Shown one piece after another: positions 24,500 through 30,114 of a DNA stretch of 64,000 bases. The notes below the pieces were generated by a model that saw only the letters and a program-made list of their open reading frames with translations, was not told the origin of the DNA and searched no databases. The first letter of the stretch is position 1. Each line of letters starts with the position of its first letter. The translations under genes were made by a program, and so were the position numbers. Source of the stretch: Prochlorococcus sp. AG-363-P08 (GTDB taxonomy: Bacteria; Cyanobacteriota; Cyanobacteriia; PCC-6307; Cyanobiaceae); the NCBI GenBank assembly GCA_003278195.1, contig QCGE01000002.1:1-64000 (forward strand), read 5' to 3'.

Positions 24500-25404
24500 C
24501 TAATTATCGTTTGTTCCTAGCTTCCATGGGATCAATTGCATTTTTGGCTACAGCAGGATTCTTTGTTTTTGTTCGTCAGCCAGAGATCTCGAAATCCGTC
24601 AAACCTGAAGCAACAGATGTTCTTCCTTTGGAGTTAGTTGCGGCTTTAGGGCAATTAGAACCTGCTGGAGATGTACGTCGATTAGCAGCACCAGTAAGCG
24701 GATTTGGCGGTACTCCAAGAGTTTTAGAGCTAAATGTTCAAGAAGGTGACGAAGTTAAAAAAGGACAAATTCTTGCTGTTTTTGATAGTCGCCCAAAAAT
24801 CCTTGCTGATATAGAAGTTGTAAAAGCATTGGCTGAAACTATTCAAGTTGAGATTGTCATGAAGGAGATAGAGGTTTCTAGGTATAAAGAGGCAGCAACA
24901 CAAGGCGCTACTTCAATTGTGCTTTTAGAGGAAAAGCAGATTCAACTAGCTTCTTTGAAGGGGAAATTGAAGCAAGCTTTAGCTGAGCTTCTGGTGTTAG
25001 ATGCTGATTTAAAAGATAGCCAACTTAAAACTCCTATAGATGGAGTTGTTCTTAGGGTTCATACACAAGTTGGAGAACGTCCAACTAATGAGGGCATTTT
25101 AGAGGTTGGAGCGAATAAGTATATGGAGGCATTGATCGAGGTTTATGAGTCAGATATTAATAGAATTAGCCTTGGACAAGAAGTGATACTTATAAGTGAG
25201 AATGGTGGTTTTGAAGGAGATTTAATTGGTCAAGTGACTCGAATTAGTCCACAGGTAAGGCAGAGAAAAGTTTTATCGACAGATCCCACAGGAGATGCTG
25301 ATGCGAGAGTTGTTGAGGTATTGGTAAAGCTTGATAAATTATCTGCTATGAAGGTTAGTCACTTGACTGGGATGAAGGTAATAGCTCGATTTCAGAAATT
25401 GTGA
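24445..25404 (+). CDS. DevB/HlyD-like membrane fusion protein of an ABC exporter
   Basis: Periplasmic adaptor of a DevBCA-type exporter. The preferred start is ATG at 24445 (319 residues), inside the end of pcyA; an in-frame ATG-less extension to 24382 is open but unlikely. It has one N-terminal membrane helix (FLASMGSIAFLATAGFFVFV), a lipoyl-like half (VLELNVQEGDEVKKGQILAVFDS), a central coiled coil and a second lipoyl half (LKTPIDGVVLRVHTQVGE). In filamentous cyanobacteria DevBCA with TolC exports heterocyst glycolipids; in a unicellular host the cargo is unknown. Confidence 0.85.
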   Translation: MGESLHRGGFIRRATSLLANYRLFLASMGSIAFLATAGFFVFVRQPEISKSVKPEATDVLPLELVAALGQLEPAGDVRRLAAPVSGFGGTPRVLELNVQEGDEVKKGQILAVFDSRPKILADIEVVKALAETIQVEIVMKEIEVSRYKEAATQGATSIVLLEEKQIQLASLKGKLKQALAELLVLDADLKDSQLKTPIDGVVLRVHTQVGERPTNEGILEVGANKYMEALIEVYESDINRISLGQEVILISENGGFEGDLIGQVTRISPQVRQRKVLSTDPTGDADARVVEVLVKLDKLSAMKVSHLTGMKVIARFQKL

Positions 25405-26573
25405 AACTGGACTTTTTAAATAGTAGAAAGATTCCACTTGCATGGCTTTTGCTTACTAGACAACCTTTGAGGTTGTTAGTTGCGATTGCGGGAATTTGCT
25501 TTGCAGGAATCCTCATGTTTATGCAGTTAGGTTTTAGAGAAGGTCTTTTTGATGCAAGCGTTACTGTTCACCGCTTATTTGATGCTGATTTAGTAATGAT
25601 GAGTCCTCGCTCAATGAGTTCTATAAGCATGAGCGGTTTCCCTAAACGTAGACTTATTCAGTCAATGGCTCACAAGGATGTAGCAGGAATAACAGCTGTT
25701 AATTGGAACTTTTTGCTTTGGCGTAATCCAGAAAATCTTGTTACAAGGTCAATTCTTGTTTTGGGATTTGAGCCTGATGCCCCTTTGTTAGAAGAATCAG
25801 GGCTTGCCTTAAAAGCAAATACTCTTAAAAATTATGGACGTGTTTTATTTGATGAAAGATCTAGAAGAGAGTTTGGACCTATTGCAGATTGGTTCAATAA
25901 AGGCCGGATTGTTGAAGCTGAGCTCGCTGGTAAAAGAGTCCGTGTTTCTGGACTAGTTAGCCTAGGGCCTTCTTTTGGCGCTGATGGAAACCTTCTTACT
26001 AGTAGAGAAACATTTCAGCGACTATTACCAACTGCTCCAAAAGGAAGTATAGAGATAGGTTTAATCCGTCTAAATCAGCAAGCAAATGTTGACTTGGTCT
26101 CAGAATCTTTAAGAAAAAGTTTACCTAATGATGTGCGAATATTTACAAAGGAAGAATTTATAAATTTTGAGAAAAATTACTGGAAAAGTAGTACTTCTAT
26201 AGGGTTTATTTTTAGCCTTGGAGCTGCAATGGGATTTGTTGTTGGCTGTGTAATTGTTTATCAAATACTTTATAGCGATGTAAGTGACCATCTTGCTGAA
26301 TATGCAACTTTGATGGCGATGGGCTATAGACTGAAGACACTCCTTGGTGTAGTTGCTCGAGAAGGAGTGATTCTTGCTGTAATGGGTTATTTGCCTGCTT
26401 ATGCGGCTGGTCAGGGTCTATACGCCTTAGTAAGAAACTCAACAAAATTGCCAGTCTCTATGGATGTAGAAAGAACAGTTCTTGTATTTGTTTTGATTTT
26501 GTTTATGTGTATGGGTTCTGCTTTATTGGCTATGCGCAGATTGAGTGATGCTGACCCTGCTGAGATTTTTTAG
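25401..26573 (+). CDS. DevC-type ABC exporter permease
   Basis: A 390-residue permease of the FtsX/MacB-like DevC family: one N-terminal helix (LLVAIAGICFAGILMFMQLGFREGLFDAS), a large extracytoplasmic domain, then three C-terminal helices with GAAMGFVVGCVIVYQILYSDV and YATLMAMGYR. The start is GTG at 25401, overlapping the upstream stop by 4 bp (GTGA), which indicates translational coupling. It forms a three-gene exporter with the neighbours. The C-terminus ends LSDADPAEIF, as is usual in this family. Confidence 0.9.
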   Translation: MKLDFLNSRKIPLAWLLLTRQPLRLLVAIAGICFAGILMFMQLGFREGLFDASVTVHRLFDADLVMMSPRSMSSISMSGFPKRRLIQSMAHKDVAGITAVNWNFLLWRNPENLVTRSILVLGFEPDAPLLEESGLALKANTLKNYGRVLFDERSRREFGPIADWFNKGRIVEAELAGKRVRVSGLVSLGPSFGADGNLLTSRETFQRLLPTAPKGSIEIGLIRLNQQANVDLVSESLRKSLPNDVRIFTKEEFINFEKNYWKSSTSIGFIFSLGAAMGFVVGCVIVYQILYSDVSDHLAEYATLMAMGYRLKTLLGVVAREGVILAVMGYLPAYAAGQGLYALVRNSTKLPVSMDVERTVLVFVLILFMCMGSALLAMRRLSDADPAEIF

Positions 26574-26576
26574 TTT

Positions 26577-27272
26577 ATGAGAAATGATCTCCCATTTGCT
26601 GTTCAAATTGATGGCCTGAGCCACAGCTTTGGGAAAGGATCTATGCGAAGAAAGGTTCTTAATTCAATCTCTTTTGAGATTTCCCCTGGCGAAGTGGTTT
26701 TGTTAACAGGTCCATCTGGTTGTGGCAAAACAACTCTTTTGACTCTGATAGGAGCCTTGAGGACTGTTCAGTCAGGGAGTCTCATTGTTCTTGGTAATCA
26801 ACTAAGTGGATCAGGTCGCAAAGTTCGTCAAAGGTTGAGAAGAAATATTGGGATGATTTTTCAAGGACATAATCTTTTAAGGTGTCTTACAGCCGAGCAG
26901 AATGTTCAGATGGGCTCTGACCTCTTGCCTGGTTTGTCTTATTTGACAAGGCGCGAGCAGGCTAGAAGTTGGCTTAGAGCTGTTGGATTAAGTGATCAAG
27001 CAAGCAAGCTGCCTCATGATTTATCTGGCGGTCAAAAGCAAAGGGTAGCAATTGCAAGAGCTTTAGCTGCTAAGCCAAGGCTTCTTCTTGCTGATGAGCC
27101 AACAGCAGCTCTAGATAGTGTTACTGGCAGAGAAGTGGTTGATCTTCTAAAGAAACTTGCACGAGAACAGGCTTCTGCTGTTTTAATGGTTACTCACGAT
27201 CCAAGGATTTTAGATGTTGCGGATCGGGTCCTTAAGATGGAAGATGGTCGTCTAATTCACTCCTTTGGGTAG
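26577..27272 (+). CDS. DevA-type ABC exporter ATPase
   Basis: ATP-binding subunit of the DevBCA-like exporter. The 231-residue protein has Walker A GPSGCGKTT (45-53), the signature LSGGQKQRVAIARALA, Walker B LLLADEPTAALD, and the switch histidine in VTHDPR. It closely resembles LolD/MacB ATPases. It starts 4 bp after the permease stop. Substrate unknown. Confidence 0.92.
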   Translation: MRNDLPFAVQIDGLSHSFGKGSMRRKVLNSISFEISPGEVVLLTGPSGCGKTTLLTLIGALRTVQSGSLIVLGNQLSGSGRKVRQRLRRNIGMIFQGHNLLRCLTAEQNVQMGSDLLPGLSYLTRREQARSWLRAVGLSDQASKLPHDLSGGQKQRVAIARALAAKPRLLLADEPTAALDSVTGREVVDLLKKLAREQASAVLMVTHDPRILDVADRVLKMEDGRLIHSFG

Positions 27273-27562: not shown

Positions 27563-28495
27563 ATGTTCGCGAGCGTTGTAATACCCACTTATAACCGCCG
27601 ACCGATTCTTGAGAAGTGTTTATCTGCACTTGAAATCCAGGCTTATGGTTCTGAGTTAGACGGATATGAAGTTGTTGTAGTTGATGATGGATCTACAGAT
27701 GGCACTCCTGAGTGGCTTCGTGAAAATACATCTAGGTTTCCTCATGTTCGTCTTTTAGAGCAAGAGCATGGGGGGCCAGCCAAGGGGAGAAATTATGGGG
27801 TTGAGAATTCTCTTGGTGATGTAATTGTTTTTATTGATAGCGATCTAGTTGTTACTAAAACTTTCCTTGCTGCACACTTCTGTTCATTAAGAACTTCTTG
27901 GGAAAGACGGGGTAACCGAAATTGCTTTACTTATGGGTCAGTAATTAATACAGCTAATTTTGAAGACCCTACTTCTGAACGTTATAAGGTTCAAGATCTT
28001 TCATGGGCTTATTTTGCAACAGGTAATGTTGCGATAGACAAGCAATTACTATGTGATTCTGGGTTATTTGATTTGAGTTTCTGTTTATATGGATGGGAGG
28101 ATCTTGAGTTAGGAGAAAGGCTTAGGCAGATGGGAGTAGCTCTTATTAGATGCCCAGAGGCCATTGGATATCATTGGCACCCTCCTTTGAAGTTAGAGAA
28201 TATTCCTGATTTAATTAGGGTTGAGAAAGAGCGAGCAAAAATGGGGCTTGTTTTTTATAGAAAACATCCCACGAATAGAGTTCGTTTCATTATTCAATTC
28301 ACTTGGCTACATCTTCTCTTGTGGGAGTTGTTAACTGTTGGTGGGATGATTAATGAACGTTCATTGCGACCATTGCTTGCATGGTTAATAAGGAATGGGT
28401 GGCCTGGCCTTGCTATGGAGCTTCTGCGTTTGCCATTGAATCGCATAGGAGTTCGAGCTCTTTTTCGAGAGGCTTATGAAGGGGGACGCTTTTAG
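27563..28495 (+). CDS. Family 2 glycosyltransferase
   Basis: A GT-A fold glycosyltransferase of about 310 residues. It begins with the conserved ASVVIPTYNRRPILEKCL, then VVVVDDGSTDGTPEWL and the nucleotide-sugar/metal motif IDSDLV. A later region with YGWEDLELGERLRQMG matches the WEDxDxxxR-type motif of GT2 enzymes. The C-terminus has a hydrophobic stretch (FTWLHLLLWELLTVGG) that may bind membrane. The ATG at 27563 is preferred over TTG at 27557. The sugar and acceptor cannot be inferred; cell-envelope polysaccharide is a plausible target. Confidence 0.85.
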   Translation: MFASVVIPTYNRRPILEKCLSALEIQAYGSELDGYEVVVVDDGSTDGTPEWLRENTSRFPHVRLLEQEHGGPAKGRNYGVENSLGDVIVFIDSDLVVTKTFLAAHFCSLRTSWERRGNRNCFTYGSVINTANFEDPTSERYKVQDLSWAYFATGNVAIDKQLLCDSGLFDLSFCLYGWEDLELGERLRQMGVALIRCPEAIGYHWHPPLKLENIPDLIRVEKERAKMGLVFYRKHPTNRVRFIIQFTWLHLLLWELLTVGGMINERSLRPLLAWLIRNGWPGLAMELLRLPLNRIGVRALFREAYEGGRF

Positions 28496-28546
28496 AGCGG
28501 TTATTTGATAAATTAATAGCTCACCAAAAAAACCGCACATCTGTCC

Positions 28547-28627
28547 GTTTCGGGTGATTCCGACCAATCTCTTCATTGCATGAGTTTTTTGGTCAGCATC
28601 CCTGACAGGTGGAGGCGAACCCGAAAC
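28547..28627 (+). promoter_or_regulatory. Structured 5' leader of rpsB
   Basis: A 9 bp perfect long-range helix pairs 28547-28555 (GTTTCGGGT) with 28619-28627 (ACCCGAAAC). Inside it a second 6 bp helix pairs 28562-28567 (GACCAA) with 28589-28594 (TTGGTC). The outer helix ends 10 bases before the rpsB ATG and encloses GGTGGAGG at 28608-28615, the only strong SD-like run nearby. The layout suggests an RNA element, possibly for autoregulation by S2; this is inference. Confidence 0.5.
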
Positions 28628-28637
28628 CCTAAACAAC

Positions 28638-29333
28638 ATGGCTGTAGTCACTCTCTCCGAGATGATGGAGGCTGGCGCTCATTTCGGGCACCAGACACGT
28701 AGATGGAACCCAAAAATGGGGCGCTATATCTACTGCGCCCGTAATGGGGTGCATATTATTGATCTTGTGAAAACCGCGGTATGCATGAATCATGCATACA
28801 AGTGGACTCGTTCTGCGGCAAGAAGCGGAAAAAGATTTTTATTTGTTGGAACCAAAAAGCAAGCTTCCGATGTTGTGGCGCAAGAAGCAACTCGCTGCGG
28901 AGCGGCTTATGTCAATCAACGCTGGCTTGGTGGGATGCTCACTAATTGGACAACTATGAAAGCCAGGATTGATCGATTAAAGGATCTGGAGCGAATGGAA
29001 TCAAGTGGTGCTATTGCAATGAGGCCGAAAAAGGAAGCAGCAGTTTTGCGTCGGGAACTTGAGAGACTTCAAAAATATCTTGGAGGTTTAAAAAGTATGA
29101 GAAGGCTTCCTGATGTCGTTGTTTTGGTTGATCAAAGAAGAGAAACAAATGCTGTTCTAGAGGCTAGAAAGTTGGACATTTCTTTGGTTTCAATGCTCGA
29201 TACAAATTGCGATCCTGATTTGTGTGAGGTCCCAATCCCTTGTAATGATGATGCAGTTCGTTCAGTTCAACTTGTGCTTGGTCGTCTGGCTGATGCAATT
29301 AATGAAGGCCGGCATGGTGGCTCTAATGATTAA
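28638..29333 (+). CDS. rpsB: 30S ribosomal protein S2
   Basis: Structural protein of the small ribosomal subunit. The 231-residue protein has the family N-terminus [19 protein letters not shown], the VGTKKQA segment, [14 protein letters not shown] and the C-terminal blocks [13 protein letters not shown] and [13 protein letters not shown]. It is followed by tsf, the usual bacterial order. The ATG lacks a close SD; the nearest GGAGG is 22 nt upstream inside the structured leader. Confidence 0.98.
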
Positions 29334-29337
29334 AAGG

Positions 29338-29373
29338 GAGCTGAAGGGACAATCAATTGTTGAATTCCAGCTC
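29338..29373 (+). promoter_or_regulatory. Hairpin after rpsB, possible attenuator
   Basis: GAGCTG (29338-29343) pairs with CAGCTC (29368-29373), and an inner ACAA-TCAA-TTGT helix can form between them. A T-rich stretch follows (TTATTTCCATTTTT). Sited 5 bp past rpsB, it could partly terminate transcription before tsf. Confidence 0.45.
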
Positions 29374-29387
29374 TTATTTCCATTTTT

Positions 29388-29418
29388 CCGATCAATTCAA
29401 GAATTTTGAATCGATCGG
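29388..29418 (+). repeat. Inverted repeat in the rpsB-tsf spacer
   Basis: Two 13-base arms (29388-29400 and 29406-29418) with 12 of 13 positions paired and a 5-base loop. The T run lies before rather than after the stem on the plus strand, so it is not a standard terminator in either direction. It may be an RNA processing or stability element. Confidence 0.5.
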
Positions 29419-29457
29419 AATCTATTCTTAAAATCATTTCCCAAATTAAAATTTAAA

Positions 29458-30114
29458 ATGGCGGACATTTCAGCCAAATTAGTCAAAGACCTGCGAGTAA
29501 AGACTGGTGCAGGGATGATGGACTGCAAGAAGGCCTTAATAGAAAGTGGAGGCGACCTAACCAAAGCCACTGAATGGCTTCGAAAGAAAGGCATAGCAAG
29601 TGCCGAAAAGAAATCCGGTCGTGTTGCAGCAGAGGGTGCTATTGGGAGCTATATCCATACAGGCGCAAGAGTTGGCGTTTTGTTGGAGTTGAATTGTGAA
29701 ACTGATTTTGTCGCGCGGGGAGAGATGTTTCAGAACCTCTTAAGGGATGTGGCTATGCAGGTTGCAGCATGTCCGAATGTTGAATATGTCTCAACTGATG
29801 AAATACCTAATGAGGTTCTTGAAAAAGAGAAGGCCATTGAAATGGGGCGGGATGATCTTGCTGGTAAGCCAGAAGAAATGAAAGAAAGGATTGTTCAGGG
29901 GAGAATTGGAAAAAGGCTTAAGGAATTGGCATTATTGGAACAGCCCTTCATTCGAGATGGCTCACTTACCGTCGCCGAACTGGTTAAACAAGTTGCCGGT
30001 CAAATTGGAGAGAACGTTAAGGTTCGGCGATTCACGAGGTTTACTCTCGGAGAGGGGATTGAGGTTGAGAAGATGGATTTTGCTGATGAGGTTGCCTCGA
30101 TTTCAGGAGGCTGA
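29458..30114 (+). CDS. tsf: Elongation factor Ts
   Basis: Guanine-nucleotide exchange factor for EF-Tu. The 218-residue length is the short form typical of cyanobacteria. The N-terminal UBA-like region [19 protein letters not shown] is followed by the core block [24 protein letters not shown], both diagnostic. The C-terminus contains [15 protein letters not shown]. No clear SD precedes the ATG. It lies 124 bp after rpsB, with two hairpins in the spacer. Confidence 0.97.

Follow-up and report, generated by a model that had tools for sequence, protein, structure and literature searches.

The DNA in front of rpsB in Prochlorococcus sp. AG-363-P08 raises the question of whether the mRNA leader of this gene folds into a structure that controls the synthesis of ribosomal protein S2 and, if so, how such a leader relates to those already described in other bacteria. 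The window considered here is the whole 64,000-nt stretch of contig QCGE01000002.1 that was analysed, and a first-pass annotation of it had proposed that a perfect 9-bp helix encloses an inner 6-bp helix and a GGTGGAGG run, together forming a leader that could regulate S2. The general idea is correct, but it captures half of the structure, and a leader of this sort had already been described at this position.

Architecture of the leader and its promoter

Picocyanobacteria is used here as a label for the window, the loci L001–L080 (mostly Prochlorococcus, Synechococcus and Cyanobium) and other genomes of the window's family. The leaders were read with a parser that required a CRCA-type box, an RAGG linker, an ACC strand and a pseudoknot of at least 4 bp, so that counts of the box, RAGG and ACC are partly by construction. 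It yielded 87 picocyanobacterial leaders (30 distinct cores) and 67 from other cyanobacteria (54 distinct cores); rows are not de-duplicated unless called distinct, and L157–L165 belong to a second collection that may repeat species of L001–L080. Outside these counts stand the picocyanobacterial L003, L012 and L015 and the divergent L143 and L145, and the parser also missed the E. coli leader, which was read by eye, and L166–L185. L003, L012 and L015 were recovered with the same 9-bp strands by R1, a covariance model made from picocyanobacteria; the parser had missed L003 because its box reads CTCA and L012 because its linker reads GTGG, a linker that also occurs in L192. The features of the window that bear on the question, all on the forward strand, are as follows.

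28506 to 28514, + strand: extended −10 promoter-like element TGaTAAATT, TGATAAATT, with the conserved pattern TGnTAnnnT
28534 to 28537, + strand: conserved 5′ CRCA box, CGCA or CACA in 87/87 picocyanobacterial and 65/67 other parsed leaders (partly by construction)
28538 to 28545, + strand: 5′ strand of helix P1, CATCTGTC, pairing with 28604–28611 with one G–U; covariation
28547 to 28555, + strand: 5′ strand of the pseudoknot helix, GTTTCGGGT; 9 bp in 87/87 parsed picocyanobacterial leaders
28556 to 28603, + strand: variable hairpin P3, with GAT (28556–28558) opposite ATC (28598–28600) and GACCAA (28562–28567) opposite TTGGTC (28589–28594)
28604 to 28611, + strand: 3′ strand of P1, GACAGGTG, pairing with 28538–28545; covariation
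28612 to 28618, + strand: linker GAGGCGA from P1 to the pseudoknot strand, starting with GAGG (RAGG being required by the parser) and 7 nt long in 87/87 picocyanobacterial leaders
28619 to 28627, + strand: conserved 3′ strand of the pseudoknot helix, ACCCGAAAC, pairing with 28547–28555
28628 to 28637, + strand: 10-nt spacer CCTAAACAAC before the start codon, without a Shine–Dalgarno (SD) sequence
28638 to 29333, + strand: rpsB, ribosomal protein S2, the putatively controlled gene (231-aa ORF, named from sequence)
29458 to 30114, + strand: tsf, encoding elongation factor Ts and lying second in the presumed operon (218-aa ORF, named from sequence)

The candidates contained 451 relatives of rpsB, of which the best 80 (E 2e-149 or better, 92–97% identical) were kept. 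Elsewhere in the window, at 25401–27272, the translations of two adjacent genes resemble what we take to be the permease and the ATPase of a DevC/DevA-kind ABC transporter.

The leader has the layout of an H-type pseudoknot with a hairpin in its middle loop, and its strands succeed each other in the order P1, PK, P1′, PK′. The perfect, fully complementary 9-bp helix (28547–28555 with 28619–28627) is present as first described, as is the inner 6-bp helix, which belongs to P3. The 9-bp helix is not, however, the plain enclosing stem it had been taken for but one half of a pseudoknot, since a second helix that had gone unnoticed, the 8-bp P1, crosses it around the variable hairpin. The same interleaved strand pairs, CACCUG../..CAGGUG and GUUUCGGGU/ACCCGAAAC, are conserved in the rpsB upstream regions of 80 loci. 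As for the GGTGGAGG run, it occupies 28608–28615 and, as had been noted, lies with 22 nt between it and the ATG at 28638; it is made up of the end of the P1 3′ strand and the start of the linker.

Taken alone, the 9-bp helix is only mildly unusual by chance: dinucleotide shuffling of the leader, whose inferred length is 117 nt, yields a Watson–Crick helix of at least 9 bp in 54 of 2000 cases, and 13 of 639 window tiles contain one. The minimum free energy of 28520–28680 is likewise no better than that of shuffles (z 0.13, from a calculation that cannot form the pseudoknot), so the case for this leader rests on conservation and comparison and not on stability. The P3 segment folds with a z of −2.7 in the window and a mean of −2.3 over the 87 picocyanobacterial leaders; it scores below −1 against shuffles in 66 of them and not in the other 21, short segments such as that of L011 failing to fold. 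Its length ranges from 16 to 113 nt among the parsed leaders. Very long P3 segments occur in the picocyanobacterial L035 (113 nt) and L071 (96 nt), and in L189–L191 a long P3 brings the whole element to 174–184 nt, the core being unchanged in all of them.

Upstream, TGnTAnnnT lies no more than 45 nt from the CRCA box in 87/87 picocyanobacterial and 66/67 other parsed leaders, and it is found in only 2/87 and 4/67 when a control stretch 95–140 nt upstream is read instead. The distance from the −10 box to the CRCA box is nearly fixed, at 15–20 nt in 85/87 picocyanobacteria and 16–20 nt in 60/67 of the others. With the −10 box at 28506–28514, transcription would be expected to start near 28521, some 13 nt upstream of the CRCA box, and the whole element would then be contained in the mRNA. 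The earlier proposal had depended on transcription not starting downstream of 28555, and the start predicted from the conserved extended −10 box falls upstream of that position. A scan of 28300–28800 for two-hexamer sigma-70 promoters returned no sites, and we found no measured transcription start for an rpsB leader in the open-licence literature. The E. coli rpsB gene, on which Aseev and colleagues have worked, reportedly has an extended −10 promoter too.

Conservation, covariation and distribution

Two alignments carry the comparative evidence. The first (A1) contains 40 of the 81 leaders from the window and the 80 loci, and 98.2% of its cells pair. Both sides of the pair have changed in 36 cells, against a mean of 10.3 in shuffles and with none of 500 shuffles reaching that number; as related sequences can exceed shuffles without any structure, the slid controls matter here, and these give at most 4. 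All of the double changes fall in P1, where they affect 4 of the 8 pairs, and none falls in the 9-bp pseudoknot helix, of which eight pairs are invariant and the ninth varies on one side. By the stricter measure of pairs with any double change, A1 has 4 against 2.3 in shuffles, a value that 20 of the 500 shuffles reach. The second alignment (A2) spans the cyanobacteria with 74 rows (71 distinct), drawn from 62 of the 67 other leaders, five with long inserts having been left out, and 12 picocyanobacterial ones. It has 116 doubly changed cells against 47.6 in shuffles (0/500; slid versions at most 22) and 10 pairs with double changes against 6.5 (0/500). In P1 all seven scored pairs are doubly changed and 99.8% of the cells remain paired, while the outer pairs of the pseudoknot helix vary and partly covary and its core, UCGGGU/ACCCGA, hardly varies, the six core pairs being without double change.

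Compensatory change, on which the first-pass annotation had staked its proposal, is thus abundant in the helix it had overlooked; in the helix it had described, such change is absent from picocyanobacteria and confined to some outer pairs across the Cyanobacteria. Since the 9-bp helix has no double change within picocyanobacteria, the case for it in this clade is made by its perfect complementarity and by the wider family. As far as a comparison of sequences can establish a structure, this one is established, P1 by covariation and the pseudoknot by perfect, conserved complementarity, and by all comparative signs the leader is a conserved cis-acting RNA.

The element is found throughout the order. 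A strict DNA pattern recovered it in only 9 of 61 genomes, and covariance models built from rpsB upstream regions, as had been suggested at the outset, were used instead. R1 matches 148 of the 150 genomes of the window's order, and the two that it does not match have no rpsB match either. Among 15 of the 148 in which rpsB was located, the match ends just before the gene in every case (15/15), including three that scored weakly at first and reached 54.7–58.7 bits when the element was searched whole. In the window's own genome, which is 84% complete, this leader is the sole R1 match with E below 1 (81.1 bits; the next has 10.5 bits, E 6). Among the matches listed for the order, a second one occurs in G244, where it is the other half of a split element, and in G245 (21.3 bits); weak second matches exist in further genomes too. 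Beyond the order, 67 of 69 further genomes of the class parse with the full core, and the other two, L143 and L145, are weak matches (19.6 and 19.4 bits) to R2, a cyanobacteria-wide model; these two lack the GAGG of the linker and retain both P1 and the AACCC strand. Other classes of the phylum contributed 20 leaders (L166–L185, presumed non-photosynthetic), and among these only L166 matches R2, at 21.2 bits. By eye only, a CACAC...GGCGGAGG strand pair resembling P1 can be picked out in L167, L169, L170 and L176, as well as in L166. The linker itself begins with GAGG in 61/67 of the other cyanobacteria and in 148 of all 154 parsed leaders (RAGG being required by the parser).

Relation to known S2 leaders

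The first-pass annotation knew of no leader described for this position in picocyanobacteria. The rpsB motif, however, has been described at rpsB with this architecture, and the taxa that carry it include Cyanobacteria, in which P2 is very short or missing (Meyer et al. 2009, PMC2704228). Like the window leader, the motif lies before rpsB, with a long P1, a short or absent P2 and a P3 hairpin, and the strand between P2 and P3 pairs with a 3′ extension after P1 (PMC2704228). The two differ in that five pseudoknot base pairs were predicted there and nine are present here, and in that picocyanobacteria have no SD sequence after the pseudoknot. Picocyanobacteria were not seen by name in those portions of Meyer et al. 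2009 that were available (PMC2704228).

A second relative is the t44 RNA (RF00127), the gammaproteobacterial form, in the 5′ UTR of E. coli rpsB, for which S2-mediated autoregulation is reported (Aseev et al. 2008, as cited in PMC10931766 and PMC2704228). There, excess S2 acts together with S1 to repress rpsB–tsf through the 5′ UTR (PMC10931766; PMC2704228), and the S2 operator reportedly does not include the ribosome binding site (PMC10931766). Partly by eye, the E. coli leader shares with ours a CACA box in the same place, a P1 ending in GUG, a GAGGC linker and an AACCC strand able to pair upstream. Also by eye, it differs in that its P2 region is longer, its pseudoknot has 7 bp and its SD stands apart, further downstream; in the pseudoknot core, GGGGU/ACCCC, a G–C stands in place of the cyanobacterial C–G. 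With R1, whose sources are exclusively picocyanobacterial, the E. coli leader is not recovered. R2 finds it in register (L087, 278–354, 22.1 bits) with an E-value, a rough one, of about 3e-5 in 9.6 kb, so the homology runs from E. coli through the cyanobacteria to the picocyanobacteria. On this sequence evidence the window leader and the site of S2 autoregulation in E. coli are homologues. The pseudoknot leaders of S15 and S4, in which a ribosomal protein represses its own mRNA at or near the start region (PMC10931766), involve another protein, fold and gene and offer an analogy only.

The divergence of the picocyanobacterial form is apparent from how the existing models treat it. The Rfam t44 and rpsB models have no match above the gathering cut-off in the window; at the leader, t44 scores 18.3 bits (full model, 28516–28621) against a gathering score of 44. 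Of 19 cyanobacterial loci, 11 have t44 or rpsB matches at the leader, all below cut-off, and t44 reaches 25.9–28.8 bits in three of these 19 other loci, one of which is picocyanobacterial (L162, 27.8). The Rfam 15 family rpsB, RF01815, is presumably the rpsB motif of Meyer et al. 2009. Its best match in a whole genome falls immediately before rpsB in 21 of the 30 genomes tried from other cyanobacteria (30 of the 69) and in 0 of 10 picocyanobacterial ones, and the model exceeds the cut-off in 0 of 40 cyanobacterial genomes and 0 of 14 control genomes of the same search. RF01815 thus gives weak matches in the other cyanobacteria and none at rpsB in picocyanobacteria, but it is important to stress that an Rfam cut-off is a detection threshold and not a biological feature. 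Judged by architecture and homology, the leader is a member of the described rpsB motif family, within which picocyanobacteria make up a divergent branch.

Initiation without a Shine–Dalgarno sequence and probable control by S2

The most conspicuous departure of the picocyanobacterial branch lies in the spacer between the pseudoknot and the ATG, where GGAG, GAGG, AGGA or AAGG occurs in 0/87 picocyanobacteria versus 65/67 other cyanobacteria. In those 65 the SD follows the pseudoknot strand by 0–6 nt, and the remaining two have an SD that overlaps this strand. The pseudoknot helix is 9 bp long in 87/87 picocyanobacteria and 6–9 bp in 67/67 others, the picocyanobacterial linker is 7 nt versus 8 elsewhere (66/67), and the median spacer is 10 versus 15 nt. 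The possibility that loss of the SD is special to rpsB was considered and rejected, because tsf is without one too: an SD precedes tsf in 0/76 picocyanobacteria (those of 80 with a start found) and in 14/18 others (those of 20 with a start found), the corresponding gap in the window being 29334–29457. The loss is therefore a trend of the lineage. SD-like runs precede 16 of the 59 window ORFs of at least 120 aa versus 4 of 59 control stretches. GGAGG is conserved even in leaders that have a genuine SD, which favours reading it as a component of the S2 site over reading it as an SD. No description of an SD-less picocyanobacterial rpsB leader was found in the open-licence literature, and this form, with its pseudoknot fixed at 9 bp and ending about 10 nt before the ATG, is apparently undescribed.

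What, then, does the leader do? That it is the picocyanobacterial rpsB motif, an S2 (uS2) autoregulatory pseudoknot that represses rpsB and tsf, is in our judgement very probable. Membership in the rpsB motif together with homology to the E. coli S2 site makes control by S2 the best reading, although not a new one, and the earlier suggestion of a structured leader that could control S2 synthesis draws support from the comparative evidence. In the proposed sequence of events, transcription would begin about 13 nt upstream of the CRCA box, and the RNA would fold into P1 (8 bp), the P3 hairpin and a pseudoknot between the strand separating P1 from P3 and the nine bases after the linker. Free S2, present when more of it is made than 16S rRNA can take up, would bind and stabilise this fold, probably together with S1, the identity of the ligand being argued by analogy with E. 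coli. The folded leader would then exclude the 30S subunit from the start region and rpsB would be repressed, with tsf perhaps following through coupling or mRNA decay. The 30S initiation footprint would cover the position of the folded pseudoknot strand. Exclusion is predicted from the short distance, about 10 nt, between the end of the 3′ pseudoknot strand and the AUG: with no SD, a short linker and a median spacer of 10 nt, the folded strand lies where the 30S subunit would sit. Because the E. coli ribosome binding site reportedly lies outside the operator, steric occlusion is not simply transferable from that system. Our search of the open-licence literature returned no cyanobacterial experiment on an S2 leader.

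Other explanations account for part of these observations. The pseudoknot might be a translation enhancer, an S1/30S landing platform that replaces the missing SD and in which S2 has no special role; pseudoknots are indeed reported as high-affinity S1 targets (PMC10931766), and picocyanobacteria lack an SD at both rpsB and tsf. A platform of this kind is nevertheless improbable, given that the same fold is found in all 67 parsed leaders of other cyanobacteria, which do have an SD, and in E. coli, where its reported role is repression (PMC10931766), and that tsf, equally SD-less, has no second copy of the motif that we could find in the window's genome. Less probable still is a ligand-free switch that gates the start region as P1 and the pseudoknot helix form or come apart in response to temperature or salt. 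The two helices are separable and moderately strong (isolated duplexes of about −9.7 and −13.0 kcal/mol), in keeping with such a switch, but the near-invariant CRCA box, UGGAGG and UCGGGU exceed what pairing needs and suggest recognition by a protein, and the fold is common to E. coli, where S2 acts.

We give very little credence to the two remaining explanations. If the conservation were of DNA only, a promoter and operator without RNA structure, one could understand why the extended −10 box is kept along with the leader at a nearly fixed distance, but not the paired changes in P1 that leave its cells paired, nor why the segment separating the conserved strands varies so widely in length; covariation has in the main already refuted it. 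A leader with crossing helices and some 117 nt in length could in principle act by transcription attenuation. No direct sign of this turned up, and the terminator-like sites found in 28300–28800, two where 0.7 are expected, lie at 28487–28499 and 28734–28753, both outside the leader.

Within the preferred reading of autoregulation by S2, perhaps picocyanobacteria have also changed its mode, such that the 9-bp strand about 10 nt before the AUG gates an SD-independent, S1-driven initiation and S2 and S1 jointly choose between the open and folded states. This is a tentative proposal that we consider rather less likely than its opposite, but if true it would make for an S2 autoregulation unlike that of E. 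coli, whose ribosome binding site is outside the operator.

Overall, some of the most abundant photosynthetic cells appear to possess a ribosomal-protein feedback leader of the classic type, in a divergent version that scores below the Rfam cut-offs. Models of the R1 and R2 type would allow the leader to be annotated in cyanobacterial genomes. The same fold exists with an adjoining SD in most of the other cyanobacteria examined and without one in picocyanobacteria, which provides a natural comparison for the way S2 and S1 may control initiation and a test case for control by S2 where there is no SD.
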